This document shows positions 10,412 through 63,848 of a stretch of 64,000 bases of DNA, in pieces. The notes beneath the pieces were generated by a model. The model saw nothing but the letters and a program-made list of their open reading frames with translations. It was not told where the DNA came from and ran no database searches. The stretch is from Orobanche coerulescens (taxonomy: Eukaryota > Streptophyta > Magnoliopsida > Lamiales > Orobanchaceae). The position numbers and the translations under genes were made by a program. Where the stretch lies: the NCBI GenBank assembly GCA_033398695.1, contig CM065815.1:102328501-102392500 (forward strand), read 5' to 3'. How positions within the stretch are numbered: the first letter of the stretch is position 1; each line of letters starts with the position of its first letter.

Positions 10412-11545
10412 TGATACGAATTCTCCGGGAGAGGCGGATACGTATCGTTCGGAGTATACGTATGAATATCGTAGCGGAAGTCTTTTTATAAATATGGTAA
10501 TTCGAGTGTATGAATATGGATGAAATATCGGATAAGGTGATAGTATCGATCAAGAAGACTTGAACGATCAAGAACAAGGGTTTATTGAATTAAACCTATA
10601 ACTCGATAAGGTGATTTCTTCCCAAGACCTATTGAGAATCAATCGGATTAATACTCGAAAACGCGTCGAATAAAAATCAAGTTTCGGTAAAAATCATTTG
10701 CCAAGGATAGAAATACAAAATGTATTCTTTCACTTCAACATTCATCATACATTATACTCTCTATTACAAGGCTAAGTGAAGACTACTTATAGGAGTGAAG
10801 TCTTCAACTTAAGGAATCAAACAAAAAATAAAATAATTCAAAGATTTATAAAATCTTTGAATAATCAAAACAAATCAAATAAAATAAGAAAAAGAAACAT
10901 ACATCATAAAACATGGGAACACAATCCCTAAAAGAGTAAAGAAAGGAAAAGAGAAGACAAAACACACAAAAATCAACAATAAAAAAAAGGTGGCTGGCTG
11001 CCGGACACGGGCCGTGTCGCTTGACAAGGTCGCGGCGCGCATCTGGCCGGTAGTGACTCGACCCTGTCCGACTGACACGGTCGCGGCGCGACAGAGACGT
11101 CCGACAGCGACTCGTCCGACAGTGACTCGGCACGAGCGCGGCGCTGACAAGGACGTTCGGCGTGGGCCCGATCGTGTCCTGGAACACGGTCGGGTCGTCT
11201 GGGCGGTCGGTTTTGGTTTATCCGGAAGAGTTCGACTCGACCGTGCTGCATAACACGGTCGAGTCACGTGGCGATGACTTTTGCATTTCGGACGAGTGCA
11301 GACGGGCCGTGTCGGACGGCAGCCGGTCAAATCCGGCCCGTGATCGGCATTTTCCTACAGTGCGATATTTTCCGGCAGCTCGACATTTTCCGTGACGGCG
11401 ACATTTTCCGGCATGTTGTGTCATTTTCCGGCTTGTGTCCGTTTTCTCGCCTAAAAATGTTGCCGTACGTGCATGACGCGTTGTAAGGTCATTTACGTCG
11501 ATCCTTGCTTCGGTTTCTTTATTCGGACTATTCAATTCCGTATTA
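10412..11545 (-). repeat. 3' LTR of element H (non-autonomous CRM-type, minus strand)
   Basis: Begins TGATACGAATTC; ends TATTA, where relatives end TATCA, so the last base pair of the terminal dinucleotide is mutated. Its orientation follows from internal landmarks: the twin ATAGGTCT stem-loops appear reversed (10582-10638), the TATA-like CTATAAG lies at 10786-10791 on the minus strand, and the hairpin array is at 10995-11310. Nearly identical over most of its length to the LTR at 62710-63848. Confidence 0.85.
10995..11310. repeat. GC-rich hairpin array in the H LTR
   Basis: Several inverted repeats built from CGACCGTGT and ACACGGTCG words with spacers of about 4-10 bases, alternating with GGCCGTGTC words. 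In minus-strand sense it lies just upstream of the TATA-like site. The long Arg/Pro/Thr-rich frames across it on both strands are a by-product of these repeats. Confidence 0.7.
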
Positions 11546-20904: not shown

Positions 20905-20963
20905 TTCTCAATAGGTCTTGAGGAGAGATTATCTTTATCGAGTTATAGGTCTAATTCGATAAA
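20905..20963 (+). ncRNA. Twin ATAGGTCT stem-loops, array LTR 1
   Basis: Stem-loop 1: arms TTCTCA and TGAGGA (one G-U pair) around loop ATAGGTCT. Stem-loop 2: arms TTTATCGAGTT and AATTCGATAAA (one G-U pair) around the same loop. Lies in the transcribed R/U5 part. The same structure is in LTR 2 (23657-23715), LTR 3 (26398-26456) and LTR 4 (29156-29214). Structural element inferred from base pairing; not an independent RNA gene. Confidence 0.65.
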
Positions 20964-22622: not shown

Positions 22623-23875
22623 TGATACGAGATCGACATGGCCAACCGAAGAAAGACGACGTATACGACCATGCAACCATGCATACGGCCATGCACACAC
22701 ATGCACCTACACGACATGCAATTACTTCTTTGGACGAGACGACTAACACGAGACTTGAAGTAACCTTGAATATATTTTACGTATGCATGAAGAAATTATG
22801 AACCATGCACTCACCCACCTTCTTCATGCATTGAAACCGATCCCTCCCTTGAATAAGTCACCTACATGGCAACAAAGTCGTCAAAGCATGATAATAATAA
22901 TCAAGAATCAAACCAAAGTCTTCTAACATGATTAGTTATTTTATTTTGTTTCTTGTCTTTGGTGAAGATTTGCTCAAGATTGACTAGTCATGATCCGAAA
23001 TTTACTAGTCGGAGAGAAAAAGGCGAAAAGCGGACAAAATTACCAATTCCTGCGTATGACTACTTCGTAGCAGCTTTTGGTATTTTAATCATAACTCTCT
23101 CATACGAAGTCCGATTTAGGTGATTCAAGCGCCATGGAAAGATAAAAGAAAGATCTATAAATCATGTGAAATGGTCCAAGGTCCAATTATGCTTCTATCA
23201 AGACACACGAACCGTTCAAATGTGCAGTGATTTTTATGGCCGAAAATTGACAAAGATTTGTGAAGATTTGGTGAAGACTTGAAGGAAGAAGATGCCAAGA
23301 AGTCCCTTTCATGATCAAGTCATTGTCAAGCCTTACAATATATCACATGAGGAGGATCTTGTCCACTCCTTCTTGAAGCCCCACGGCCGATTTGTACAAG
23401 GAAGGAGCCAAAATGTTGTGATTTCTTGTCAAAGTCTTTGTAGATAGTTTAATAAGTGCTTGTATTTTAGCTAGATTTGGTGTGATTTTCTTTGGCCTTG
23501 TTAGGAGTCATTATGGCTATATAATAGCCTCACCCTCAACCCTTTGGAATTATCTTGAAAGTTATAAATATTGTATTTCTCTTGAAATATACGTTGAACG
23601 AGTTCAACAAAATCTTGGTTATTATTTCGACGCGTCTCGAATTATAACTTGATCAATTCTCAATAGGTCTTGAGGAGAGATTATCTTTATCGAGTTATAG
23701 GTCTAATTCGATAAAACACATTCAATCCCATACACTACCCTACCTCACTACGAAACCATATAAATTCGGCCACCACCTTTTATTTTCGTTGTTACTTTGA
23801 TACTTGTAAAAACCGTGATAATCTTCCGTTGTATTTTATACGTTTTACGTACACTTATATACGTAATTCGTATCA
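22623..23875 (+). repeat. Array LTR 2
   Basis: 1253 bases, TGATACGAG...GTATCA. It serves as 3' LTR of unit 1 and 5' LTR of unit 2. Followed by a primer site and the PBS hairpin (23890-23911). Confidence 0.92.
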
Positions 23876-25359: not shown

Positions 25360-26617
25360 TGATACGAGATCGACATGGCCAACCGAAGAAAGACGACGTA
25401 TACGACCATGCAACCATGCATACGGCCATGCACACACATGCACCTACACGACATGCAATTACTTCTTTGGACGAGACGACTAACACGAGACTTGAAGTAA
25501 CCTTGAATATATTTTACGTATGCATGAAGAAATTATGAACCATGCACTCACCCACCTTCTTCATGCATTGAAACCGATCCCTCCCTTGAATAAGTCACCT
25601 ACATGGCAACAAAGTCGTCAAAGCATGATAATAATAATCAAGAATCAAACCAAAGTCTTCTAACATGATTAGTTATTTTATTTTGTTTCTTGTCTTTGGT
25701 GAAGATTTGCTCAAGATTGACTAGTCATGATCCGAAATTTACTAGTCGGAGAGAAAAAGGCGAAAAAGCGGACAAAATTACCAATTCCCATGCGTATGAC
25801 TACTTCGTAGCAGTTTTGGTATTTTAATCATAACTCTCTCATACGAAGTCCGATTTAGGTGATTCAAGCGGCCATGGAAAGATAAAAGAAAGATCTATAA
25901 ATCATGTGAAATGGTCCAAGGTCCAATTATGCTTCTATCAAGACACACGAACCGTTCAAATGTGCAGTGATTTTTATGGCCGAAAATTGACAAAGATTTG
26001 TGAAGATTTGGTGAAGACTTGAAGGAAGAAGATGCCAAGAAGTCCCTTTCATGATCAAGTCATTGTCAAGCCTTACAATATATCACATGAGGAGGATCTT
26101 GTCCACTCCTTCTTGGAAGCCCCACGGCCGATTTGTACAAGGAAGGAGCCAAAATGTTGTGATTTCTTGTCAAAGTCTTTGTAGATAGTTTAATAAGTGC
26201 TTGTATTTTAGCTAGATTTGGTGTGATTTTCTTTGGCCTTGTTAGGAGTCATTATGGCTATATAATAGCCTCACCCTCAACCCTTTGGAATTATCTTGAA
26301 AGTTATAAATATTGTATTTCTCTTGAAATATACGTTGAACGAGTTCAACAAAATCTTGGTTATTATTTCGACGCGTCTCGAATTATAACTTGATCAATTC
26401 TCAATAGGTCTTGAGGAGAGATTATCTTTATCGAGTTATAGGTCTAATTCGATAAAACACATTCAATCCCATACACTACCCTACCTCACGGCCGAAACCA
26501 TATAAATTCGGCCACCACCTTTTATTTTCGTTGTTACTTTGATACTTGTAAAAACCGTGATAATCTTCCGTTGTATTTTATACGTTTTACGTACACTTAT
26601 ATACGTAATTCGTATCA
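25360..26617 (+). repeat. Array LTR 3
   Basis: 1258 bases. Near its 3' end the plus strand reads CTCACGGCCGAAACC, where LTRs 1 and 2 read CTCACTACGAAACC. Followed by the primer site at 26622 and hairpin 26632-26653. Confidence 0.92.
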
Positions 26618-26876
26618 TAAGTGGTATCGGAGCCCAAGGTCATCTCCTTGGGCGATTTATTCAACGGATTTTTTTTTTGAGATTAGCGCAGTCGGAAGAA
26701 AACAAAGTTTCCCGTGGATTCGACCGTTGGATCGTCACGAAATTTTGACAAAAGTAAGCCAACTCATTGAACTACAGTCTGAACGGTGGAGATCAGATTC
26801 TTTGATCATCTTCTTGGTTCATTCTTCACGGATTTCTTGGCAAATTTTCTGTCCGATTTCTTGATCATTAGAAGAG

Positions 26877-28241
26877 ATGGACTTTTCCAATACCGAATTC
26901 TTGGTAAAGCTACGTGATGCTTTACATGACTTACCGGAACCTCGACGAGGAGGAGAAGGCCTGTGTTCCCCACGTCATACTAACGAGTTCGAGTTGAACG
27001 AACTTCCAAAGTTCATCGGAGGTGCCGACCCCGAAATTTATTTGGAATGGGAACGTAAGATGGATTGCTTGTTCGAGTTTAAAGGTCTTGACGATGAGAA
27101 GCGTTGCAGATATGCAATTATCAAGTTGGTTAAAGGCGCTTCAGTTTGGTTCGAATTAAAGAAGAAGCAAAGGACTCGTGCTGGAAAAAACAAGATCCGT
27201 TCGTGGGAGTCGTTGAAAAGAAAACTTCGCAAGAGATACGTACCTTTCGGCTCGAGTTCGGCTCTCAAAATCATAACAACATCAGCCCCCAACTCGGTTT
27301 CTAAAACTCTCGACTGGCCTAATGAGACGAGTTTGCTGGAGGTGAGTTGTTTCATTGGCCAAGGGTTCGATCATGTGCAAGATGTTTGCCCGACTCTTGC
27401 TACCCGAGACGAGTTAATAGCCGAGGAAGAACAAGAAAGGCTAGGCGACATTCTCAAGTTTGATATAGAGGACGAAGGAGAAGAAGAATGTGTAGTTTAC
27501 GATGCTCCCGATTATGATACAGACTTAGTTCTTCGTACTTTAGAAACCAAATCGGTTTCAAATGATTTGGAGCATCAGGACGAGTTAACGAGTGAGGAAC
27601 TCACAAGTATACTTTTAAGTTCTACACAACCGTCCGTTTCCCGAGCTACAGAAGATGAAGAGATTGAGGACAAGGCGATTGTTCCCCAAAATTTCTATGA
27701 GGTTATTTCTATTAAAAAATTGGAGGATCCCAATCCAATTGTTCTCATTGATCCGGTTCCCGACACCGACCAACGTAAAAGCTATGTGGCTACATGTGAC
27801 TGGAAAATAGTAAAAGACGGACTCATTGATGAAAGGAATGAGGACAAGATTTGTGCCCACATGACGCCGGAAATGGAAATTATTCCGTTAAACCACAAAT
27901 CGTTTTTTGGGGATTCCGTTAAGGGAAATGGTAGACACCTAGATACGTCGTTTGTTTTTATTTTGCAGGTTGGTCTTTTAAAAATGCAATCCCAAGCAAA
28001 CGTCAACACATCCGACGAAAATTACATCTTCAACCCGGGAGGAGCACAACCCTATCCGAATACCAACCGTCCTTGGACTTTAGATTCGAGGACGAATCTC
28101 TTTAAAGGAAGAGGGGATGATACGAGATCGACATGGCCAACCGAAGAAAGACGACGTATACGACCATGCAACCATGCATACGGCCATGCACACACATGCA
28201 CCTACACGACATGCAATTACTTCTTTGGACGAGACGACTAA
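26877..28241 (+). CDS. gag: Gag-like protein, array unit 3, reading into LTR 4
   Basis: 454 codons. Nearly identical to the unit 1 protein up to about residue 395, with an insertion of two or three bases near 27308 that locally changes the linker (SKTLDWPNETS) and restores the frame. A one-base loss near 28057 then shifts the C-terminus, so the frame runs through the polypurine tract and about 120 bases into LTR 4. The changed tail (NTNRPWTLDSRTNLFKGRGDD) is probably not native. The same CFIG zinc-knuckle defect as in unit 1 is present. Confidence 0.78.
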   Translation: MDFSNTEFLVKLRDALHDLPEPRRGGEGLCSPRHTNEFELNELPKFIGGADPEIYLEWERKMDCLFEFKGLDDEKRCRYAIIKLVKGASVWFELKKKQRTRAGKNKIRSWESLKRKLRKRYVPFGSSSALKIITTSAPNSVSKTLDWPNETSLLEVSCFIGQGFDHVQDVCPTLATRDELIAEEEQERLGDILKFDIEDEGEEECVVYDAPDYDTDLVLRTLETKSVSNDLEHQDELTSEELTSILLSSTQPSVSRATEDEEIEDKAIVPQNFYEVISIKKLEDPNPIVLIDPVPDTDQRKSYVATCDWKIVKDGLIDERNEDKICAHMTPEMEIIPLNHKSFFGDSVKGNGRHLDTSFVFILQVGLLKMQSQANVNTSDENYIFNPGGAQPYPNTNRPWTLDSRTNLFKGRGDDTRSTWPTEERRRIRPCNHAYGHAHTCTYTTCNYFFGRDD

Positions 28242-29374
28242 CACGAGACTTGAAGTAACCTTGAATATATTTTACGTATGCATGAAGAAATTATGAACCA
28301 TGCACTCACCCACCTTCTTCATGCATTGAAACCGATCCCTCCCTTGAATAAGTCACCTACATGGCAACAAAGTCGTCAAAGCATGATAATAATAATCAAG
28401 AATCAAACCAAAGTCTTCTAACATGATTAGTTATTTTATTTTGTTTCTTGTCTTTGGTGAAGATTTGCTCAAGATTGACTAGTCATGATCCGAAATTTAC
28501 TAGTCGGAGAGAAAAAGGCGAAAAAGCGGACAAAATTACCAATTCCCGCGCGTATGACTACTTCGTAGCAGTTTTGGTATTTTAATCATAACTCTCTCAT
28601 ACGAAGTCCGATTTAGGTGATTCAAGCGGCCATGGAAAGATAAAAGAAAGATCTATAAATCATGTGAAATGGTCCAAGGTCCAATTATGCTTCTATCAAG
28701 ACACACGAACCGTTCAAATGTGCAGTGATTTTTATGGCCGAAAATTGACAAAGATTTGTGAAGATTTGGTGAAGACTTGAAGGAAGAAGATGCCAAGAAG
28801 TCCCTTTCATGATCAAGTCATTGTCAAGCCTTACAATATATCACATGAGGAGGATCTTGTCCACTCCTTCTTGGAAGCCCCACGGCCGATTTGTACAAGG
28901 AAGGAGCCAAAATGTTGTGATTTCTTGTCAAAGTCTTTGTAGATAGTTTAATAAGTGCTTGTATTTTAGCTAGATTTGGTGTGATTTTCTTTGGCCTTGT
29001 TAGGAGTCATTATGGCTATATAATAGCCTCACCCTCAACCCTTTGGAATTATCTTGAAAGTTATAAATATTGTATTTCTCTTGAAATATACGTTGAACGA
29101 GTTCAACAAAATCTTGGTTATTATTTCGACGCGTCTCGAATTATAACTTGATCAATTCTCAATAGGTCTTGAGGAGAGATTATCTTTATCGAGTTATAGG
29201 TCTAATTCGATAAAACACATTCAATCCCATACACTACCCTACCTCACTACTAAACCATATAAATTCGGCCACCACCTTTTATTTTCGTTGTTACTTTGAT
29301 ACTTGTAAAAACCGTGATAATCTTCCATTGTATTTTATACGTTTTACGTACACTTATATACGTAATTCGTATCA
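28118..29374 (+). repeat. Array LTR 4
   Basis: 1257 bases, the terminal 3' LTR; ends GTATCA and is followed by the target repeat CAATC. Confidence 0.93.
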
Positions 29375-47864: not shown

Positions 47865-49065
47865 TGATACGAATTATCCGGGGAGAAGCGGATACGTATT
47901 GGTCGGAGTATATGTAGGAATATCGTAGCGGAAGTCTTTTTACGAGTAAGGGTGTTTTTGGATGTATCTTGTGATGTAATATCGAATATGACGAGGAAAA
48001 TTCGAACAAATGGAAAATGGAAGTAATATCGGAAAAGTGATAAAAATATCGATCAAGAAGACTTGAACGATCAAGAACAAAGGTTTATCGAATTAGACCT
48101 ATAACTCGATAGGGTGATTTCTTCCCAAGACCTATTGAGAATCAATCGGATTAATATTCGAAAACGCGTCGAATAAAAATCAAGTTTCGGTAAAAATCAT
48201 TTACCAAGGATAGAAACACAAAGTGTATTCTTTCACATTCAAATTCATCATACAATATCTAATACATGATGAACCAAGCCTACTTATAGGAGAGTAGTCT
48301 CTTACAACTAAGGAATCAATAACTACAAGATCACATGATCTTAGAAATTAAAAACAATAATCAAGATAAAAAAAATAAGATTACAAGGAATCAAATATTA
48401 GGGGTGGGGATCACACACATGAACATGATTATAAGCCATCCTACCATGTGAGGAAAAGGGAGACAAATTAATACACAAAGTGTATAAAATAAAGGAGGCT
48501 GCCGGCTGGACACGGGCCGTGTCGATGGACACGGCCGCGGCTGCATGTGCCATGTGTGGCAGGACTCGACCGTGTTCGACTGACACGGTCGGGCTGGTCG
48601 GCAGGCGTTTCGGCGCTTCTAGGCGAGTAGGACTCGACCGTGTTCGTATGACACGGTCGGGCTGGTCGGCAGACTTGCGACACTTTCCGGAGGAGTGCGA
48701 CACGATCGTGTCCTGGGACACGGTCGAGCTCGGCAGCAGTTCGTTCGGCCAATTCCGGAAGAGTAGGACTCGACCGTGTCGGACGACACGGTCGGGTTCG
48801 GCCGACAAGATCGATTGGCTTATCCGGCACATCTCAAGACGGCCGTGTCGGACGACATCACGGTTCGGCCGGCGTTGCTCGCCATTTCCAGAAGTGCGAT
48901 ATTTTCCTAAGAAAGAGATATTTTCCGGCAGGTTGGACATTCCTTTTACGTCTTATGTCCGTTTTCTCGCCTAAAAATGTAGTCGCACGTGCACGGCGCG
49001 TTGTAAGGCCTTTAACGTCGATTCTTGCTTCGGTTTCTTTATTCGGACTATTCAATTCCGTATCA
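47865..49065 (-). repeat. 3' LTR of element J
   Basis: TGATACGAATTATCC...CCGTATCA. Twin stem-loops reversed at 48084-48141. GC hairpin array at about 48505-48865, with a perfect 10-bp-arm hairpin (CGACCGTGTC/GACACGGTCG). Confidence 0.92.
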
Positions 49066-50180
49066 TCCCCTCCCCCTTTAAAGGGAATTGTCCTCAATTC
49101 CGAACTTCCTCCGTCATCAAGATAATTAATCAAAGCCTCCAAGTACTTGATCTCGAAAATGTCCGCAGTACGTACATGACCCAAAATCTTGAGACGATAG
49201 GTAGTGGGGGGCCCTCGAGAATCACCAACAAAATAACTATCATTATTAATAAAATAATAATAATTACTCCGCCAGGTAATACCGATATCATGAAATGAGT
49301 GGACATCTGAAATGGGACGCACGGTTAATTTCACATCGGGCTCATCCTCCAGAATTGGAAACACTGATAATTCCACATCGGGTTCATCATCAAGAATGGG
49401 AAACACATGATTTATTACGGACTCCTCTTCGTCAACTGGTTCTGCATCAAAGACCGGTGGCCCTTCATAATCCGACCCAATTTCCATGACACTAAAAGGC
49501 TCCTCATCACTAAAATAATTTGGTCCGTTTTGGTCAATTTGGCCAACACAACCAACTGACCCATGCTCAAAGTAGCAAGGTCCAGGTTCGTCGACTAGGG
49601 AGACACGGCTCAACTCATCTTCTTCGTTGAATTGCTCCGTTGAAAACTCTCTCTTGTCTACTTCATTAAAAATGGTGGTAGGGACATCGTCTTCGTCAAA
49701 AAAAATTTCGCTGGAAATTCTTCGATAAAAAAAAAATCTTTGATCAAAGGTTGGTGGCGGGGCGTCGAAGGATTGGTGGTGGGGAAACAACGACTGGTGG
49801 TAAGATGTGGCTTTGAACCTTCGCTTGAAATATTTCTTGAATTTTTGCCAATCTGTAATTTTAGGCTTACGTTGTTTTGAACGGGACTCTTTCAATTTTT
49901 GCCACCAGAAGGCGGCGCTACCGCGGAGGCGCTTTGTCACCAGCGAAACGCGGTGGTTGATCGGGGCAGCCTTGAAGTCCGAGTGCTCCTCACAAGCATG
50001 GAGCCAATCTATGCACGCATCTGGATTACTATCTCCGTGAAATTCCGGTATGCTGCGGAATTTGGCCAAGAAATCAATATCGTTGGCATCGTCTCTGCGT
50101 CTTTCTTGCATACGTTGCTCCGGTAAGCCGTTTAGTGTGTCACGGAGTTTCATCAAGAAATCGAGCTCGGAGAAATCCAT
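48858..50180 (-). CDS. gag: Truncated Gag-like protein of element J, reading into the 3' LTR
   Basis: 440 residues from the ATG at 50180, chosen over one four codons upstream because the relatives start MDFS. Residues about 1-125 are the N-terminal capsid-type region (IPEFHGDSNPDACIDWLHAC, AAFWWQKLKESRS, WQKFKKYFKRRF). No zinc knuckle, protease or RT. The middle is strongly acidic with three tandem units of the type FPILxDEPDVxLxV. A C-terminal block (YYYFINNDSYFVGD, YRLKILGHVRTADIF) recurs in H. The frame crosses the polypurine tract ([10 protein letters not shown]) and about 200 bases of LTR, where LTTRxARATTFLGEKTD is conserved with G, H, L and the LTR at 60482. Function unknown. Confidence 0.8.
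   Translation of the reverse strand: MDFSELDFLMKLRDTLNGLPEQRMQERRRDDANDIDFLAKFRSIPEFHGDSNPDACIDWLHACEEHSDFKAAPINHRVSLVTKRLRGSAAFWWQKLKESRSKQRKPKITDWQKFKKYFKRRFKATSYHQSLFPHHQSFDAPPPTFDQRFFFYRRISSEIFFDEDDVPTTIFNEVDKREFSTEQFNEEDELSRVSLVDEPGPCYFEHGSVGCVGQIDQNGPNYFSDEEPFSVMEIGSDYEGPPVFDAEPVDEEESVINHVFPILDDEPDVELSVFPILEDEPDVKLTVRPISDVHSFHDIGITWRSNYYYFINNDSYFVGDSRGPPTTYRLKILGHVRTADIFEIKYLEALINYLDDGGSSELRTIPFKGGGDDTELNSPNKETEARIDVKGLTTRRARATTFLGEKTDIRRKRNVQPAGKYLFLRKISHFWKWRATPAEP
49066..49080 (-). other. Polypurine tract of element J
   Basis: Plus strand TCCCCTCCCCCTTTA, i.e. TAAAGGGGGAGGGGA on the coding strand. Confidence 0.9.
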
Positions 50181-50417
50181 AACAAGAATCAAGAGATAGT
50201 TCTTGACAAGAAATCGGACAGAAAATTTTCCAAGAATTCCGTGAAGAATGAACCAAGAAGATGATCAAAGAATCTGATCTCCACCGTTCAGACTGTAGTT
50301 CAATGAGTTGGCTTACCTTTGTCAAAATTTCGTGACGATCCAACGGTCGAATCCACGGGAAACTTTATTTTCTTCCGACTGCTCTAATCTTAACAAAAAA
50401 AATTCGTTGAATAACTC

Positions 50418-50453: not shown

Positions 50454-51639
50454 TAATACGAATTATCCGGGGAGAAGCGGATATGTATTGGTCGGAGTAT
50501 ATGTAGGAATATCGTAGCGGAAGTTTTTTTACGAGTAGGGGTGTTTTTGGATGTATCTTGTGATGTAATATCGAATATGACGAGGAAAATTCGAACAAAT
50601 GAAAAATGGAAGTAATATCGGAAAAGTGATAAAAATATCGATCAATAAGACTTGAACGATCAAGAACAAAGGTTTATCGAATTAGACCTATAACTCGATA
50701 GGGTGATTTCTTCCCAAGACCTATTGAGAATCAATCGGATTAATATTCGAAAACGCGTCGAATAAAAATCAAGTTTCGGTAAAAATCATTTACCAAGGAT
50801 AGAAACACAAAGTGTATTCTTTCACATTCAAATTCATCATACAATATCTAATACATGATGAACCAAGCCTACTTATAGGAGAGTAGTCTCTTACAACTAA
50901 GGAATCAATAACTACAAGATCACATGATCTTAGAAATTAAAAACAATAATCAAGATAAAAAAAATAAGATTACAAGGAATCAAATATTAGGGGTGGGGAT
51001 CACACACATGAACATGATTATAAGCCATCCTACCATGTGAGGAAAAGGGAGACAAATTAATACACAAAGTGTATAAAATAAAGGAGGCTGCCGGCTGGAC
51101 ACGGGCCGTGTCGATGGACACGGCCGCGGCTGCATGTGCCATGTGTGGCAGGACTCGACCGTGTTCGACTGACACGGTCGGGCTGGTCGGCAGGCGTTTC
51201 GGCGCTTCTAGGCGAGTAGGACTCGACCGTGTTCGTATGACACGGTCGGGCTGGTCGGCAGACTTGCGACACTTTCCGGAGGAGTGCGACACGATCGTGT
51301 CCTGGGACACGGTCGAGCTCGGCAGCAGTTCGTTCGGCCAATTCCGGAAGAGTAGGACTCGACCGTGTCGGACGACACGGTCGGGTTCGGCCGACAGTCA
51401 GTTTGGCTTATCTGGCACATCTCGGCACGGGCCGTGTCGGACGACACGGTCGGGTTCGGTCGGCAGTGCTCGGCCATTTCCGGCAGGCGAGATATTTTCC
51501 GGCAGGTTGGACATTCCTTTTACATCTTATGTCCGTTTACTCGCCTAAAAATGTAGTCGCACGTGCACGGCGCGTTGTAAGGCCTTTAACGTCGATTCTT
51601 GCTTCGGTTTCTTTATTCGGACTATTCAATTCCGTATCA
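50454..51639 (-). repeat. 5' LTR of element J
   Basis: 1186 bases. Its first dinucleotide on the plus strand is TA (TAATACG) instead of TG, a point change. Twin stem-loops at 50673-50730; hairpin array at 51094-51465. Confidence 0.9.
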
Positions 51640-52268: not shown

Positions 52269-52514
52269 GTGCGGTCAGTTCTTCCCGCAATTTGGCTACC
52301 TCGCCAAGAAGTGTGGACTTCAACTCGTTAAGAGCAAGCAACACCTTGTCCTCAATATCGCTGGCATTTTCTTCAAGGACATCCATCCGTTCGATGGTTT
52401 CACCAACAGCCACCTCGATCTTAGTCATCCTTGCTTCCATCGAGGATGCAAGATCCCTGGACTTGTCCCTACCACCTTTCTTGGTCTTGCGACCATCATC
52501 GCCAGCATTGTTCC
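52269..52514 (-). pseudogene. gag: gag N-terminal coiled-coil segment, Galadriel-like element
   Basis: Minus-strand frame: a charged start (GRKTKKGG-like), SSMEARMTKIEVAVGETIER, then heptad-rich IEDKVLLALNELKSTLLG and KLREELTAL. A predicted coiled coil before the capsid is usual for plant gypsy Gag. It lies between I on the left and G on the right. Confidence 0.88.
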
Positions 52515-53676
52515 TGATACGGAATCATTTGATATGAACGAAGAAGACGAAGTAAGGATCGATATAAATGACCTTACTACACGCCATGCATGGGCTACTA
52601 CGTATTTAGGCGAGAAAACGGACATAAGACGTGGAGTCTCGGTCTCAGCCGTGTCATATAACACGGCCCGTGTCATGCTATGCCGGAAGGTCGACAATCG
52701 ACCGGAAAATGGACGAACTGCCGGAAAAATCACCACCGGCCGGAAAATTCACCACCTGCCGAATCGGCCGATCGCCGACCACCACCACGGAATCGCCGAT
52801 CATCACTCGGAATCGGGCCGATCACTGCCGAGGGAATCCGGCCGTGTCATCCGACATGGCCCGTGCCGAGGTGTCCTGGATAATGAAATCTCGCTGCCGA
52901 CCGAACCCAACCGTGTCGTCTGACACGGCCCGTGCCGACACAACCCGACCGTGCCAGGCGACACGGCCGAGTCACACTCTTCCGGATAGTACAATTCTCG
53001 CTGTTCGACCAACCCGACCGTGCCAGGCGACACGGTCGAGTCCCTGCCGGCCAGATGCGCGCCGCGACCGTGCCGATCGGCACGGGCCGTGTCCGGCAGA
53101 CCAGCAAATGCCATTATTGCTGTTTTTTTTTTTTGTTGTTGTTTTTCCTCCCCTCACATGTCATGATTAGACTTGCATGTTATGTGGGGTGTCTTATATT
53201 CATTTTGTTGTGTGATTCCCCCTCCCTTTGATTTGATTCCCTTGTATTTTATCTTGTGTTTTGTTTTTCATTTCAAGATCATGTGATCTTGTTTGATTCC
53301 TTAGTTGCTAAGAAGACTACCATGCTATAAGTAGTCTTGTTGATGCTTTCATTATGGATATTGTATGTTGAAGAAATAAGAATACACTTGTGTTTTCTTG
53401 GTGAATGCTTTTCGTCGAAACCTTGGTTATAATTCGACGCGTTTTCGAGTTTTAATCGAATCGATTCTCAATAGGTCTTGAGAAAAGATTATCTTATCAA
53501 ACTATAGGTCTAGTTTGATAAATCATTCATATTGTTCTTGTTTATGTAAGCCGAATTGCCCTACTTTCGGTTATATCTTACGAGTGTTACACATATACGA
53601 GTGTTGTGAGGTAACAAATTATATCCGCTGCATTTTCCGGCGAATTTACGTTCATCTTAATACGTAATTCGTATCA
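52515..53676 (+). repeat. Left LTR of element G
   Basis: 1162 bases, TGATACGGAATC...TTCGTATCA. The first about 150 bases are open in the frame of pol ([23 protein letters not shown]). Hairpin array 52650-53100, TATA-like CTATAAG at 53325-53331, twin stem-loops 53465-53521. Confidence 0.93.
53465..53521 (+). ncRNA. Twin ATAGGTCT stem-loops, element G left LTR
   Basis: Stem-loop 1: TTCTCA and TGAGAA around ATAGGTCT. Stem-loop 2: TTATCAAACT and AGTTTGATAA, fully paired, around ATAGGTCT. Relative to the other families, stem 2 differs at several positions on both arms so that pairing is kept. Repeated in the right LTR at 59751-59807. Role inferred; it lies in the R/U5 part of the transcript. Confidence 0.68.
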
Positions 53677-53680
53677 TTAG

Positions 53681-53711
53681 TGGCATCGGAGCCCAAGGCT
53701 ATTTCCTTGGC
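53681..53711 (+). other. Primer site and adjoining hairpin of element G
   Basis: Primer site TGGCATCGGAGCC (53681-53693), two differences from the usual initiator-Met complement. A six-pair hairpin CCAAGG(CTATTT)CCTTGG follows at 53693-53710. Confidence 0.82.
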
Positions 53712-53758
53712 AATTTTATTGAAGATTTCTTGTTCAAAACTATCTCTTGATTCTTGTT

Positions 53759-53929
53759 ATGGATTTCTCCGATCCCGATTTCTTGATGAAACTCCCGCAC
53801 TCACTAAGCGGTCTCAGGAACCACGTATGCAAGCAAGACGCGGGATGACGACGCCAAATACACCATGCGGATGAGTTTAAAGTAAACGAACTTCCGGAGT
53901 TCGTTGGAGGTACCGATCCCGAAGCTTAT
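53759..53929 (+). pseudogene. gag: gag start of element G (frameshifted)
   Basis: ATG at 53759 gives MDFSDPDFLMKL, matching the starts of the array, J and L genes, but reaches a stop after about 30 codons. The homologous sequence continues in other frames (DEFKVNELPEFVGGTDPEAY) into the long frame at 53930. Small deletions near 53800-53850 explain the break. Confidence 0.75.
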
Positions 53930-55930
53930 TTGGAGTGGGAACGGAAAATTGAACGCATGTTCGAATTCAAAGACCTTAACGACGAGAAACGTTGCAAATA
54001 TGCAATTCTCAAGTTAGGGAAGGGTGCTTCTCTTTGGTTCGAAGGAGTAAAGACGCGAAGAACTCGGGAGGGAAAAGCAAAAATCCGTTCGTGGGACTCT
54101 TTAAAAAGAAAACTTCGTAAGAGGTATGTGCCAACATCACACCGGTTAACCTTATACCGGAAGATTGCCGACTTCATGCAAGGCAAACTAAGTGTCGATG
54201 AATATATTGAAGAGTTCGAAAGTTTGGTCTTGATGGGAGAGCTAGAAGAAAACGAAGAACAGAAGATGTCCCGTTTTTTACGTGGCTTAAATAAAAACAT
54301 AGCCAACACGGTGGAGTTATATCCATATGAAGATTTCGATACTTTATGTGGATTATGCATAAAGATAGAAGCCCAAAATAAATTGAAGTTTTCAAGACCC
54401 AAATTTCCTTCCAAATTCGGGAATCCAAGTGCCGGTTCGAGTTCGGGTACTAAAAGCACCACACCAAGTCATGTCCCTGTCACGACACGTAAGACTCCCT
54501 ACGTACCCAAAGAAACAAGTTTGGCGAAGGTACGATGTTTCAAGTGTCAAGGATTCGACCATTACCAAAATGCATGTCCGAACAAACGGGTGGTGACACT
54601 AAGAGAGGCTCTTGAGGCCCGGGAAGAATTATTGGCCGAGGACGAAGAAGAAAGACTCGGCGACGTGTTTGACGTAAACGCCGAAGAAGAAGAGGAGTGT
54701 GAGGCTTACAATGCTCCGGACTATGACACGAGTCTAGTCCTTCGCACTTTACAAGTCAAGACGGTTTCGAGGGACACGGAGCAACGAGATCAAATATTCC
54801 ACACCAAGTGTCAAATTAAAGACAAATGGTGTAGTTTGATAATCGATGGAGGAAGTTGTACGATTGTTGCTTCAAGCGAGATGGTGACAAAGCTCGGACT
54901 CATCACTACTACTCATCCAAAACTATACGCGTTACATTGGCTCGATGATGGGAGTAAGGTGAAAGTTTCGAAACAAGTACGGGTCGGATTAACTATGGAT
55001 TCGTATGGTGACAACGTACTATGTGATGTACTCCCGATGGATGCATGCCACATACTTCTGGGCCGACCGTGTCTATTTGATAGAGACGTTTTACATCGAG
55101 GAAGGAGTAACGAATATGAATTACGGGATAAAGGCAAGAAGATTGTGCTCAAACCAATGGCACCCCAAGCCATTCGATCGATGAGTTCTAATCAAATGGA
55201 GAAACCGAAGCTTACTATGTTTGTTAGTGAGAAAGAGGTAAGACACGCTATTGACGATGGCGAGCGTGTGTATTTATTAATGATTAAAGAAACACGAGAT
55301 GTTGACGTAGTTGTGCAAGGCAAGAGAGACATCGATACCTTGCTACAAGAATTTGCGGATGTCTTCCCGGAAGACTTACCGCCGGGTTTACCACCTTTGC
55401 GTGGGATTGAACACCAAGTCGACCTTGTACCGGGTGCATCACTCCCTAACAAGGCCGCCTATCGATGTAACCCCGAGGAGACAAAGGAGTTGCAAAAGCA
55501 AATCGAGGAGCTAATGAACCGCGGGTACGTTCGAGAAAGTTTGAGCCCTTGTGCGGTTCCGGTTTTACTTGTTCCAAAGAAGGATGGGTCATGGCGGATG
55601 TGTATAGATAGTAGAGCCGTGAACAACATAACCATCAAATATCGGTTCCCAATTCCGAGACTTGATGATATGTTGAACGAGTTGCATGGTTCGGTGATTT
55701 TTTCGAAGGTTGATTTGAGAAGCGGCTATCATCAAATTCGCATGCGGGAAGGAGATGAATGGAAAATGGCTTTCAAGACAAAACATGGATTATATGAATG
55801 GCTCGTCATGCCCTTTGGCCTTACAAATGCGCCAAGTACTTTCATGCGATTAATGAATGAGGTACTTAAGCCATTTTTGGGAAAATTTGTCGTCGTATAC
55901 TTGGACGACATCTTAATTTATAGTCGATAA
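53930..55930 (+). pseudogene. gag-pol: gag-protease-RT polyprotein segment, element G
   Basis: 666 codons; Met1 is internal to gag. Residues 1-150 are the capsid-type gag domain (WDSLKRKLRKRYVP, DFMQGKLSVDEYIEEFESL, NTVELYPYEDFDTLCG). The zinc knuckle uses C203, C206, H211 and C216. An acidic spacer follows, then the protease site LIIDGGSCTIVASSEM (Asp306; Gly replaces the usual Ser or Thr). RT has [44 protein letters not shown] and an intact catalytic VVYLDDILIYSR at the very end. The stop at 55928-55930 falls directly after this motif, where relatives continue. RT motifs are otherwise undamaged. Confidence 0.92.
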
Positions 55931-56169: not shown

Positions 56170-57007
56170 TGATACAAATTACGTATAAAATACGTATGAA
56201 ATACAACGGAAGATTATTATGTCTTGACAACTATCAAAGTATCACTCGAAAATTACAAGGGGTGGCCGAATTTGAATGGGGTTCGGCCGTGAGGTAGTAT
56301 GATATACGGATTTTGATGTGTTTTATCGAACTAGACCTATAACTCGATAAAGGTAATCTCTTCCCAAGACCTATTGAGAATTGATCTAGTTAAAATCTCG
56401 AGACGCGTCGAAACAATAACTAAAGTTTTGTTGAACTCGTTCAACGTATATTTCAAAGAAATACAAGGTTTATTAATATTCAAGATGATTTACAAATATC
56501 ACAAGTACTACTATATATAGTAGTTTCCAACCGTAAGAAAATACAACAAAACGAGAAATGAAACTTCCTATCTTGCTACAATTCGGCCGAATTATCCAAG
56601 GACAAGATACCAAGTATCTTGGTTTTATTAGGTGATGGTGACATGAAGAAATCTTTGATGAATCTTGGTTTTATTAGGTGATGGTGACATGAAGAAGATA
56701 TTTGATGAAAGTCTTCATCAAATCTCATGTTTGGGCCGATTTTGTAGTGAGGTGGGGAAGGAGAAATCTCTTCATGCATCTTGACAAATCATGAGTCCCT
56801 TTCAAGCATGATATGGCCGATTTTTCATGCTTTCGGACCAATTCCGTCGTCGAATTTTACGTTACTCCGATTCCGATTAACAACGTAATTCCAATCCGCG
56901 TGTTCTTTTCTCCCAAGTATAATGATGCATGGCCATGCGAATTTGCATCGTCGTGGATGTCGATTTTTATTGGAGCTTCTTCGATTGGAATATTAGATAT
57001 CGTATCA
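56170..57007 (-). repeat. Solo LTR inside the pol gene of element G
   Basis: 838 bases, TGATACAAATTACG...GATATCGTATCA, with GGAGG on both sides (56165-56169 and 57008-57012). Reverse-oriented: the twin stem-loops read on the minus strand (56322-56380). Related to, but shorter than, the array LTR family (rc start TACGTATAAA...CAACGGAAGATTAT). No internal sequence, so a solo LTR. Confidence 0.92.
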
Positions 57008-57012
57008 GGAGG

Positions 57013-58134
57013 TTCATACGAGACTTTAGTACCATTTCTAGTCCGATAACGGAATGCTTGAAAAAGGGACCGTTTATGTGGAACGGGGCTGCCCAAGGGG
57101 CGTTTGAAAAATTGAAGGCGAAAATGTGTGAAGCACCTATCTTGGCTTTACCCGACTTTTCACAACCTTTCGAGGTAGAATGTGACGCAAGTGGAGTGGG
57201 TATTGGGGCGGTCCTCGTCCAAGGGAGGCGACCAATTGCCTACTTTTCGGAGAAATTGGGTGGGGCTCGACTCAACTATTGTGCTTATGACAAGGAGTTC
57301 TATGCCATTGTGAGAGCTCTTGATCATTGGAGCCATTACCTTCGGCCGAAACATTTCATCCTACATTCGGATCATGAGTCCTTGAAATATATCAACGGCC
57401 AACTAAAGTTGAGTCCGAGACATGCTAAATGGGTGGAATTCTTGCAATCATTCCACTTTTCATCGAAGTACAAAGATGGCAAGAGCAACGTTGTGGCGGA
57501 TGCTTTGTCTAGACGGTATGCCTGGCTCTCTACTCTTGACATTCGGTTGCTTGGGTTCGAAGCATTGAAGGAGTATTATGATGGGGATGTGGATTTTGGT
57601 GAGGTTTTCATTCGGTGTAAATTCGGTCCGTTTGGAGAGTTTACGTTGCAAGAAGGATTCCTTTTCAAAGGGAATCGCCTATGTTTACCCAAACACCCGA
57701 TTCGGGAATTATTAGTTTGGGAAGCTCACGGTGGAGGCTTGGCCGGTCATTTTGGTTCGGCCAAAACGTTGGAGGTCCTTAAAGAGCATTTTCATTGGCC
57801 GAAGATGCAAGTGAATGTACACGACATAATTAATAAGTGTGTGACATGCCATATTGCTAAAAGTTCATTCAAACCGGGAGCATACATGCCTTTGCCAATT
57901 CCGGAAAGACCGTGGGAAGATGTCTCAATGGATTTTATTGTTGCTTTGCCTCGTACTCAACGAGGGAGAGATGCTATTTTGGTTGTCGTAGACCGATTTT
58001 CGAAGATGGCTCACTTTGTGGCTTGCCACAAGACAGGGCAGCGAGTAACGTCGCCGATTTGTATTTCCAGAAATCGCACGATTGCATGGGGTTCCAAAAA
58101 CGATTGTTTCGGATCGGGACTCAAAATTCCTTAG
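57013..58134 (+). pseudogene. pol: RNase H and integrase N-terminal part, element G
   Basis: RNase [58 protein letters not shown]. Integrase zinc finger: [20 protein letters not shown] with CVTCHIAKS. Catalytic core begins [17 protein letters not shown] with the first Asp, then [15 protein letters not shown] frameshift near 58040 spoils the next part ([13 protein letters not shown] appears in another frame), and the frame ends at 58134. Full length is otherwise as expected for the family. Confidence 0.9.
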
Positions 58135-58966
58135 TTATTTTTGGAACACCTTGTGGAGAAAGGTGGGAACCAAACTACTATTTAGCACGTCACATCATCC
58201 ACAAACGGACGGTCAAACCGAAGTGACCAATCGAACGTTGGGCACATTACTACGTGGTCTTGTGAGCAAGACACAGAAGGATTGGGACTTGAAACTTGCA
58301 CATGCGGAGTTCGCTTATAATCGTTCTCCTACTCATGCCACGGCACACTCTCCGTTCGAAGTAGTTTACGGACTAAACCCGTACATGCCGTTAGATCTAA
58401 TTCCATTGCCAAGTGACGAGTTAGTGCACAAGGATGCAGAATCAAAATTGAAATCGATGATGAAATTACACGAGCAAGTACGTAATCGAATCAAGGAAAT
58501 AAATGAGGCTTACAAAAGAAAGTCGAACAAACAAAGAAGGCCGAGATTGTTCGAAGTTGGCGATTTGGTTTGGTTGCATTTAAGAAAAGAGCGATTCCCA
58601 AATAAACGTAAGAACAAGTTAATGCCGCGAGCGGAGGGACCGTTTAAAGTAATCGCGAAAGTGAACGACAACGCTTACAAATCAGAACTTCCGGGAGATT
58701 ATGGGATTCATGCAACCTTTAATGTTGGGGACCTCTCACCTTACATCGATGATGACGGAATTTCGGAATTGAGGACAATTCCTTTTAAAGGAGGAGGAGA
58801 TGATACGGAATCATTTGATATGAACGAAGAAGACGAAGTAAGGATCGATATAAATGACCTTACTACACGCCATGCACGGGCTACTACGTATTTAGGTGAG
58901 AAAACGGACATAAGACGTGGAGTCTCGGTCTCAGCCGTGTCATATAACACGGCCCGTGTCATATAA
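58082..58966 (+). pseudogene. pol: Integrase core and C-terminus, element G, reading into the 3' LTR
   Basis: Contains the second and third catalytic residues ([29 protein letters not shown]) and [22 protein letters not shown] basic GPF module follows ([24 protein letters not shown]), then [14 protein letters not shown]. There is no classical chromodomain. No stop occurs before the polypurine tract: the frame passes through it ([11 protein letters not shown]) and continues 55 codons into the LTR, ending after [18 protein letters not shown]. Extension of the pol frame into the LTR is, as I recall, known for CRM-lineage elements. Confidence 0.88.
58787..58800 (+). other. Polypurine tract of element G
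   Basis: AAAGGAGGAGGAGA directly before the right LTR; it is also coding (KGGGD). Confidence 0.9.
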
Positions 58967-59962
58967 CACGGCCCGTGTCATGCTATGCCGGAAGGTCGAC
59001 AATCGACCGGAAGATGGACGAACTGCCGGAAAAATCACCACCGTAGGAAAATTCACCACCGCCGGGCGGCCGATCGCCCGACCACCACTGCCGGGCCGGC
59101 GATCACTGCTAGGCCGGCGATCAACTGCCGAGGGAATCCGGCCATGTCATCCGACACGGCCCATGCCGAGGTGTCCTGGATAATGAAATCTCGCCGCCGA
59201 ACCGGCCGTGTCGTCCGACACGGCCGTCCGACACAACCCGGCCGTGCCGAGCGACACGGCCAGTCACACTCTTCCGGATAGTACAATTCCATTGTTCGAC
59301 CAACCCGTGCCGGGAGACACGGTCGAGTCCCTCGCCGGCAGATCTGCGCGCAGCCGTGCCGATCGGCACGGGCCGTGTCCGGCAGACCAGCAAATGCCAT
59401 TATTGCTCATTTTTTTTATTTTTTGTTGTTTTCCTCCCCTCACATGTCATGATTAGACTTGCATGTTATGTGGGGTGTCTTATATTCATTTTGTTGTGTG
59501 ATTCCCCCTCCCTTTGATTTGATTCCCTTGTATTTTATCTTGTGTTTTGTTTTTCATTTCAAGATCATGTGATCTTGTTTGATTCCTTAGTTGCTAAGAA
59601 GACTACCATGCTATAAGTAGTCTTGTTGATGCTTTCATTATGGATATTGTATGTTGAAGAAATAAGAATACACTTGTGTTTTCTTGGTGAATGCTTTTCA
59701 TCGAAACCTTGGTTATAATTCGACGCGTTTTCGAGTTTTAATCGAATCGATTCTCAATAGGTCTTGAGAAAAGATTATCTTATCAAACTATAGGTCTAGT
59801 TTGATAAATCATTCATATTGTTTTTGTTTATGTAAGCCGAATTGCCCTACTTTCGGTTATATCTTACGAGTGTTACACATATACGAGTGTTGTGAGGTAA
59901 CAAATTATATCCGCTGCATTTTCCGGCGAATTTACGTTCATCTTAATACGTAATTCGTATCA
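58801..59962 (+). repeat. Right LTR of element G
   Basis: 1162 bases. Compared with the left LTR it has an extra copy of a short CATATAACACGGCCCGTGT unit and several differences in the hairpin array (about 58930-59385). Outside the array the two are nearly identical. Twin stem-loops 59751-59807. Confidence 0.93.
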
Positions 59963-60481: not shown

Positions 60482-61727
60482 GATACGAAATTAACCACTC
60501 AAAATGAAAAAGGCGGAGCAAGGATCAAAATAAACGGCCTTACAACGCGTCATGCACGTACGGCGACATTTTTAGGCGAGAAAACGGACACAAGCCGGAA
60601 AAAGACAACCTGCCGGAAAATGTCATCGCCTGCCGGAAAAAGTCACGCTTAGGAAAATGCGGCACCGCCGACCGAACTCGGCCGTGTCGATGCACGGCCG
60701 ATCGAGTCTTGCTCGTCCGGAGCGACCAAGGTCATTGTCGGCCGAACCCGACTGCCGTGGGAGACACGGTCGAGTCCTACTCGCCCACAACTATCGGAAC
60801 CCATCGCCCGACGCCCGACCGTGTTCCAGACACGATCGAGTCTCGCCAAACGTCCTTGTCACGCCGCAGTCGGCTGCCGGTCCTTGTCGCGCGCGCCCAT
60901 GCCGAGTCACCGCCAAACGTCCTTGTCACGCCGCACGGCCGAAGTCATCGCTGGTCCTTGTCACGCCGCGCCCGTGCCGAGTCATCTGTCGACGTTCTTG
61001 CCGCCGCGACGCGTGTCAAGCGGACACGGTCGAGTCCTCGCCGGGCGCTTGCCGATCGCGCCGCGGCCGTGTCACGGGACACGGTCGAGTCCTGCCGACA
61101 GCCCACTTATTTTATACACTTTTGTGTATTTTTTACTTCTCTTTTCCTTTTTACTTATTTTAGGGATTATGCTTTCCCCATTTTGTGATTTATGTTTCTT
61201 GTATGTATTTTATTTGATTTGTTTTGATTATTAAAAGATTTTATAAATCTTTGAATTATTTTCTTTTTTTTGTTTGATTCCTTAGACTATGGCTTCACCT
61301 CCTATAAGTAGGAGTTGATTATCATTTGTAAAGAGAGAGAGTATGATGAATGTTGAAGTATAAGAATACACATTGTGTTTTCTATCCTTGGTAAATGATT
61401 TTTACCGAAACTTGATTTTTATTCAACGCGTTTTCGAATATTAATCCGATTGATTCTCAATAGGTCTTGAGAAGAAATCACCTTATCGAGTTATAGGTCT
61501 AATTCGATAAACCCTTGTTCTTGATCGTTCAAGTCTTCTTGATCGATATTATCACTTTCCCGATATTACTTCCATTTTCCATTTGTTCGAATTTTCATTG
61601 CCATATTTGATATTACATCACAAAATACATCCAAAAACACCCATACTCATAAAAAGCCTTCCGCTACGATATTCTTACGTATACTCCGAACGATACGTAT
61701 CCGCCTCTCCCAGAGAATTCGTATCAT
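60482..61727 (+). repeat. CRM-type LTR in the orientation opposite to element H
   Basis: 1246 bases, TGATACGAAATTAACC...GAATTCGTATCA. Twin stem-loops at 61454-61510, TATA-like TATAAG at 61303 and hairpin array at 60670-61095 all read on the plus strand. No primer site follows and no polypurine tract precedes it, and its flanks (CAAGA and TACTT) are not a repeat. It could be a rearranged or recombined solo LTR. Its start also encodes LTTRHARTATFLGEKTD. Confidence 0.78.
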
Positions 61728-62709: not shown

Positions 62710-63848
62710 TGATACGAATTCTCCGGGAGAGGCGGATACGTATCGTTCGGAGTATACGTATGAATATCGTAGCGGAAGTCTTTTGAATATGGTAATTCGA
62801 GTGTATGAATATGGATGAAATATCGGATAAGGTGATAGTATCGATCAAGAAGACTTGAACGATCAAGAACAAGGGTTTATCGAATTAGACCTATAACTCG
62901 ATAAGGTGATTTCTTCCCAAGACCTATTGAGAATCAATCGGATTAATACTCGAAAACGCGTCGAATAAAAATCAAGTTTCGGTAAAAATCATTTACCAAG
63001 GATAGAAATACAAAATGTATTCTTTCACTTCAACATTCATCATACATTATACTCTCTATTACAAGGCTAAGTGAAGACTACTTATAGGAGTGAAGTCTTC
63101 AACTTAAGGAATCAAACAAAAAATAAAATAATTCAAAGATTTATAAAATCTTTGAATAATCAAAACAAATCAAATAAAATAAGAAAAAGAAACATACATC
63201 ATAAAACATGGGAACACAATCCCTAAAAGAGTAAAGAAAGGAAAAGAGAAGACAAAACACACAAAAATCAACAATAAAAAAAAGGTGGCTGACTGCCGGA
63301 CACGGGCCGTGTCGCTTGACACGGCCGCGGAGCGCATCTGGCCGGCAGTGACTCGACCGTGTTCGACTGACACGGTCGCGACGCGACAGGGACGTCCGAC
63401 AGCGACTCGTCCGACAGTGTCTCGGCACGGGCGCGGCGCTGACAAAGACGTTCGGCGTGGGCCCGATCGTGTCCTGGAACACGGTCGGGTCGTCTGGGCG
63501 GTCGGTTTTGGTTTATCCGGAAGAGTTCGACTCGACCGTGCCAGACAACACGGTCGAGTCCTGTGGGCAGTGACTTTTGCATTTCCGGACGAGTGCGGCA
63601 CGGGCCGTGTCGGACGGCACGGTCGGGTCCGGCCGGCAGTGATCGGCATTTTCCGGCAGGTGCGATATTTTCCGGCAGGCTCGACATTTTCCGGCAGGCG
63701 ACGACATTTTCCGGCAGGTTGTGTCATTTTCCGGCTTGTGTCCGTTTTCTCGCCTAAAAATGTTGCCGTACGTGCATGACGCGTTGTAAGGTCATTTACG
63801 TCGATCCTTGCGTCGGTTTCTTTATTCGGACTATTCAATTCCGTATCA
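62710..63848 (-). repeat. 5' LTR of element L
   Basis: 1139 bases, TGATACGAATTCTCC...CCGTATCA. Almost identical to the H LTR at 10412-11545. Twin stem-loops reversed at 62877-62933; hairpin array about 63295-63640. Confidence 0.88.

Follow-up and report, generated by a model that had tools for sequence, protein, structure and literature searches.

The window analysed here is G000:C15:102328501-102392500, a stretch of 64,000 nt, and it contains an LTR retrotransposon, G, on the plus strand. The 5' LTR of G (52515-53676, TGATACG...CGTATCA) and its 3' LTR (58801-59962) were paired by self-BLAST and are about 93% alike, with a 5-base direct repeat, GTTCC, outside both ends. A primer binding site (PBS) of near initiator tRNA-Met type, TGGCATCGGAGCC, was read from the sequence at 53681-53693 (+); it is two letters, and the corresponding site TGGTATCGGAGCC of the array elements described below one letter, away from TGGTATCAGAGCC, which we take to be the tRNA-Met-complementary site. 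Pfam detected Gag, RT, RNase H and integrase pieces, with Retrotrans_gag and RVT_1 in the Gag-to-RT open frame at 53849-55930 (+) and the integrase end in a frame at 58049-58966 (+) whose tail is CR-like by eye; no chromodomain was reported by Pfam in G. G is a complete but decayed element. Among the 120 best proteins listed, out of 404 matches to its Gag-RT frame, those of Silene latifolia scored highest, with 73% identity across 99% of the query, and a Spinacia protein reached 70%; the host is on this basis probably a member of the Caryophyllales. Group A CRM elements have a coding region that extends into the 3' LTR (Neumann 2011), and in G the last frame runs to 58966, the LTR starting at 58801. 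The LTRs of that group mostly begin with TGATG and end with T/CATCA (Neumann 2011); the 3' TATCA of G fits and its 5' end reads TGATA. In the explanation favoured below, the group is labelled CRM-type Ty3 retrotransposons.

The window also holds elements with a single long ORF. That of J (48858-50264, minus strand) has a Gag-like start, which was just above the Pfam cut-off for Retrotrans_gag and shares 28% identity over 93 residues with the Gag of G; its tail shares 71% identity over 63 aa with the end of the integrase frame of G, including the CR-like motif, and the pol-less J may still carry a presumed centromere-targeting peptide. The single ORF of the array element (26865-28241, plus strand) gave no Pfam match, its start being 72% identical to the Gag of G over 90 aa, and it retains a weak trace (E 0.002) of the integrase-end tail. 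Pfam found no RT or integrase in these two long ORFs, to which that statement applies. As originally predicted, the block described next is common to the pol-bearing G and to elements whose only ORF of at least 200 aa is Gag-like.

This block lies at 53465-53521 in the 5' LTR of G, where two adjacent stem-loops had been proposed from the letters. Fold prediction bore this out, giving two hairpins at -15.7 kcal/mol (z -3.62), with none of 200 shuffles as good. The first hairpin (SL1, 53459-53490, plus strand, lower helix included) has an upper stem 53465-53471/53478-53484 around the hexaloop UAGGUC (53472-53477) and, across a 2x2 internal loop, a lower helix AAUC 53459-53462/GAUU 53487-53490. 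The second (SL2, 53494-53521, plus strand) has an 11-bp stem 53494-53504/53511-53521 around the hexaloop UAGGUC (53505-53510). Exact ATAGGTCT occurs 25 times in the window against 1.33 expected. The twin arrangement was found 12 times, one fewer than the thirteen LTRs first counted; 11 copies are exact matches to a two-loop pattern that had 0 matches in 100 shuffles, and the remaining one, in LTR H, has ATAGGTTT as its second loop, in agreement with the mutated loop noted there before. The claim of identical loops ATAGGTCT holds for these 11 of 12 copies, but as its terminal A and T pair with each other, the actual loop is of 6 nt.

On the plus strand, besides the copy in the 5' LTR of G (loop 1 starting at 53471), the twin hairpins are located in array LTRs 1 to 4 at 20905-20962, 23657-23714, 26398-26455 and 29156-29213 (loop 1 from 20911, 23663, 26404 and 29162), in the 3' LTR of G at 59751-59807 (loop 1 from 59757) and, in the LTR earlier placed at 60482, at 61454-61510 (loop 1 from 61460). 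The minus-strand copies are in LTR L (62877-62933, loop 1 from 62927), in the solo LTR inside G (56323-56380, loop 1 from 56374), in the two LTRs of J (50674-50730 and 48085-48141, loop 1 from 50724 and 48135) and in LTR H (10582-10638, loop 1 from 10632). Across the 12 copies the right arm alone of stem 1 varies and pairing is kept, since the arms TGAGAA, TGAGGA and TGGGAA all pair, as had been claimed. In stem 2 two pairs have changed on both sides, A-U for G-C and C-G for U-A as originally described, with one U-G intermediate in the solo LTR; the description has to be amended for the J copies, in which stem 2 starts CTATC and the outermost pair is lost. Covariation within the window is weak, as there are 7 distinct rows and 18 of 500 shuffles reach the same level.

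A TATA box, TATAAGT, was read from the sequence at 53326-53332 (+), 139 bases before stem 1 (53326 to 53465); the same distance, predicted for G and the array, was found in both and in the solo LTR, and the block starts 137-153 bases past the TATA box in 70 of 77 copies. Judged by its TATA distance, the block would lie in R/U5. In G an AATAAG word stands about 85-90 bases upstream of stem 1, the block being downstream of it. Whole-leader folds of five LTRs (J and H not among them) made both hairpins highly probable and added the lower helix of SL1 across the 2x2 internal loop. This helix reads AAUC/GAUU in one family and GAUU/AAUC in others; among 47 diverse copies, 32 have G-C, 8 have A-U and 3 have G-U as its outer pair. 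Beside the internal loop, pair 49-74 is C-G in 11, U-A in 11 and broken in 25.

Just upstream of SL1 lies a probable third hairpin, SLB (53425-53457, plus strand), with 12 counted pairs, the loop CGCGUUU and the palindrome ACGCGU (53437-53442), which is intact in 27 of the 47 copies; of the 20 copies that have lost it, 15 differ by one C-to-T or G-to-A change within its CG words. Confidence in SLB is lower than in SL1 and SL2, because RNAalifold gave its right arm another partner and because a slid control version yielded 17 double-changed cells against its own 14. An alternative helix, 53422-53426/53445-53449 (A3 columns 7-11 with 31-35), competes with SLB; its outer pair is C-G in 25, U-A in 12 and U-G in 8 of the 47 copies, and it showed no double-change branch on the LTR-flank tree. 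A conformational switch between SLB and this helix is possible. Further upstream, the minimum-energy fold contains a possible 8-bp hairpin with a variable loop, SLA (UUGGUGAA/UUCGUCGA, 53398-53418, plus strand), which is thereby only suggested as a fourth hairpin; its arms are family-specific, and by eye their pairing nevertheless seems kept. Hairpin probability exceeded 0.5 for SL1 in 62 of 76, for SL2 in 67 of 75 and for SLB in 44 of 69 copies, counted over rows with a found anchor. The SLB-SL1-SL2 stretch is the most conserved between TATA box and PBS (64 representatives of 77 copies), with conservation of 0.84-0.95 over the block, 0.87-0.88 just upstream and 0.53-0.79 elsewhere. Rfam returned two matches in 52500-54000, both below their gathering scores and neither at the block.

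In the host genome (3.65 Gb) the stem-1 pattern matched 14,325 times, the stem-2 pattern 16,521 times and the unchanged stem 1 4,391 times, and reversed control patterns matched nowhere. The copies for alignment came from 23 loci on contig C1, as stretches around stem-1 pattern matches, together with the window, all searched with a model of the block; stem 1 is therefore pre-selected in the C1 copies. At E up to 1 the model gave 121 matches, of which 77 were strong (57-97 bits) and 44, at 24.2 bits or less, were set aside. One strong copy, L014_9496, which is without most of stem 2, was left out of most pairing and tree analyses and kept in the conservation and TATA-distance counts; the 47 diverse copies are those, from the remaining 76, that differ at 4 or more places. 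At G000:C1:115555116-115584208 the copies follow one another about every 2.43 kb, and the mutation AATTAGATA is common to 8 of the 11 listed stem-2 copies of this stretch; the run and the 2.75-kb array of the window both appear to stem from tandem duplication, not from independent insertions. At two loci, L015 and L063 (C1 and C15), stem-loop types are newly combined, examples being the SL1 type of one family joined to the SL2 type of a different one and a fully paired CAAATT/AATTTG stem 2; such combinations suggest recombination within the leader.

Beyond the host, the two-hairpin pattern was found in 0 viral contigs. The 16-base stem-1 pattern occurred in 21 viral contigs and was dismissed as chance, the block model scoring at most 23.5 bits in all 21 compared with the 57-97 bits of the strong copies. 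The RNase H-integrase frame of G had no match in viral contigs and matched one plant-like stretch, L029 (NZ_PYFX01000053.1, filed under Bradyrhizobium). This contig, 5 kb long, belongs to a bacterial assembly but has the appearance of a plant CRM element, CR-type motif included, and is hence probably contamination. By eye, the integrase tail of G resembles the PITRARARQL of this grass-like contig. L029 holds no exact ATAGGTCT, and the block model returned nothing in it at E up to 10.

We then asked how far the pairing itself is conserved. For SL1 and SL2 in the 47 copies there are 41 double-changed cells compared with 20.0 ± 3.1 in shuffled alignments, a level that none of 500 shuffles reached, and slid structures gave at most 10; these cell counts are inflated by related copies. 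Paired cells made up 95.6% compared with 93.6% in shuffles. The number of pairs with both sides changed (4 vs 4.4 shuffled) and of further pair types (15 vs 16.4) showed no excess. SLB had 14 double-changed cells compared with 4.8 shuffled, the version slid by -2 being the control with 17, and with all three hairpins taken together, a slid version had 8 both-side-changed pairs compared with 7 in the real structure. On a tree of the LTR flanks, three branches carry double changes (two of them in SL2 and the third in SLB, with SL1 contributing none) compared with 0.32 in variability-matched pairs, a value reached in 41 of 5000 draws; an earlier alignment had given 4 double-change events in 9 variable pairs, of which two fell in the lower helix of SL1, compared with 0.027 per control pair. 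Single-sided changes kept or broke pairing in ratios hardly different from control pairs, both on the tree (31/35 vs 2239/3237) and in the earlier alignment (17/21 vs 7951/10610); in our own reading, most copies are probably old and decaying, and this would blur the contrast. Many stem positions say little for the structure, because they hardly vary. Given the few tree events and the near-control kept/broken ratios, the structural support is real but comes from few events, and the compensatory changes claimed across families stand in the same way, as double-sided changes in excess of shuffles with few independent events. SL1 and SL2 thus likely form a conserved RNA secondary structure, as looked for in a packaging signal, with few independent events and contrary measures, and the data support pairing that is conserved between LTR families, with some double-sided changes, in a block located downstream of the TATA box.

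Tentatively, at close to an even chance, we propose that the block is part of a structured R/U5 leader RNA by which Gag or its nucleocapsid picks the genomic RNA of all partners. The Gag-binding or RNA-selecting role originally guessed is likewise what we infer here. In such a scheme SL1, SL2 and probably SLB would fold in the plus-strand transcript, some 65 to 165 bases past the start expected from the TATA box and far ahead of the PBS. The hairpin row would mark genomic RNA for recognition by Gag or its nucleocapsid, with SL1 and SL2 as two equal Gag-binding sites and the palindromic loop of SLB as a possible start of RNA dimerisation; pol-less elements could thereby enter the same particles as pol-bearing ones. 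A shared signal for the Gag of G is not forced, because the pol-less elements themselves encode Gag-like proteins. Kissing between the twin loops as an HIV-like dimer site was considered and rejected: AGGUCU is self-complementary via G-U, but the predicted duplex is weak (-0.8 kcal/mol, compared with -3.4 for UAGGUCUA and -10.9 for GCGCGC), and judged by predicted duplex energy only the twin loops are not stable self-complementary loops. Since they self-pair weakly by prediction, SLB would be the better candidate if dimerisation is involved. A more elaborate version, in which the palindromic SLB and the twin UAGGUC hairpins, inter-pairing with a tandem G-U centre, form a packaging and hetero-dimerisation signal of a CRM guild, kept amid LTR divergence, so that pol-less families would be recognised, co-packaged and recombined with pol-bearing ones in centromere-bound particles, we consider unlikely.

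The same structural evidence would serve a real RNA structure that acts at another step, namely 3' end formation, first-strand transfer, initiation of reverse transcription or leader translation, and the place of the hairpins between TATA box and PBS, downstream of the AATAAG word, would suit such a role. However, the identical twin loops and their sharing across different Gag-like frames single out none of these steps, and we hold this alternative to be possible but rather unlikely. On our analysis, it is packaging or dimerisation that would most probably require a single structure shared between different Gag-like frames and LTRs.

The block could also be kept as DNA, its inverted repeats forming a dyad to which a protein binds, be it a transcription factor or one that positions nucleosomes or CENH3, and nearly the whole block is indeed kept as sequence, unpaired loops included. 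If it acts as plus-strand RNA, G-U pairs are expected to be tolerated and A-C mismatches not. A search that allowed five mismatches per hairpin at most yielded 78 distinct copies from 39 sources, with 53 G-U cells compared with 12 A-C cells in SL2, and 90 compared with 13 in SL1 and SL2 together. Among them, the 16 distinct copies of the window and its C15 flanks, taken without pattern choice, gave 12 G-U and 0 A-C cells for SL1 and 11 and 3 for SL2. In the first 100 of the 16,521 SL2 copies (all on C1), for which the search pattern prescribes the loop and the outer pairs, the four free pairs held 47 G-U compared with 8 A-C, and the inner variable pair was UA in 67, UG in 22, CG in 11 and CA in 0. 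With SLB and the lower helix counted in, the 47 copies have 93 G-U compared with 46 A-C cells. Stem 1 is unchanged in 4,391 copies, and if the counts, which are possibly lower bounds, are complete, some 9,900 of its 14,325 matches have at least one U-G arising from a right-arm A-to-G change. The G-U preference is clear in these twin-hairpin copy counts and unclear in tree events (31 Watson-Crick-to-GU compared with 23 Watson-Crick-to-AC), which do not differ clearly and leave room for a DNA site. A DNA dyad would not favour the excess of the copy counts, and the precedent that could be cited for it, the nucleosome-placing LTR motif of the wheat element Quinta, is described in the 5' half of the LTR, outside the half shared after the TATA box (PMC11302176). 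We regard a DNA site as quite improbable, and the hairpin row probably acts in RNA. Shared descent and recombination alone, with the block a young, little-changed piece whose pairing is incidental, would agree with the exchanged blocks of L015 and L063, with many changes being inherited by many copies, with tandem arrays that copy single variants and with single-sided changes that keep pairing little more than control pairs do, but is quite improbable against the greater divergence of the flanks of the same LTRs, the shuffled and slid controls for SL1 and SL2 and the tree-matched control for double changes.

Recognition of the leader by Gag is retained as our tentative reading, and a small RNA fold that partners from different families have in common would be a concrete candidate recognition signal, testable in vitro with short RNAs. 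Plant CRM elements are described as encoding the integrase end in the 3' LTR and as having a tRNA-Met type PBS, and G is like group A in that its last frame enters the 3' LTR with a CR-like tail (PMC3059260); the main text of that paper uses none of the terms hairpin, secondary structure, packaging or TATA. Among the titles and abstract openings listed, in which subscription literature is thinly covered, there was no mapped packaging signal for a plant LTR retrotransposon. In yeast Ty3, of the same superfamily, a short palindrome near the 5' end of the genomic RNA, PAL6 (nt 391-396), is linked to in vitro dimerisation, and the dimerisation-site section describes no twin loops (PMC11381356). 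The likeness to our leader is a short palindrome in the 5' RNA; unlike SLB, PAL6 lies in the GAG ORF, judging by order. In the gammaretroviral leader, GACG loops of the same sequence and palindromic loops are tied to packaging and dimerisation (PMC516450). There too, loops of one sequence and a palindromic loop occur in one RNA leader, but the loop sequence is another one, and function was tested there and is predicted here. The GACG and dimer hairpins of murine leukaemia virus sit after the PBS, whereas the hairpins here are before it. The wheat elements RLG_Cereba and RLG_Quinta, CRM partners of which one bears pol and the other is gag-only, share the PBS and the LTR half from near the TATA box on, within otherwise different LTRs; this sharing is attributed to promoter and terminator, and the case for mobilisation of the pol-less element is built on the LTR ends, PBS and promoter that the two have in common (PMC11302176). 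The words stem, hairpin and secondary structure are absent from the main text of PMC11302176. As in that pair, the pol-bearing G shares its block with elements whose only long ORF is Gag-like; unlike in that pair, a row of hairpins sits here in the shared half of the LTR.
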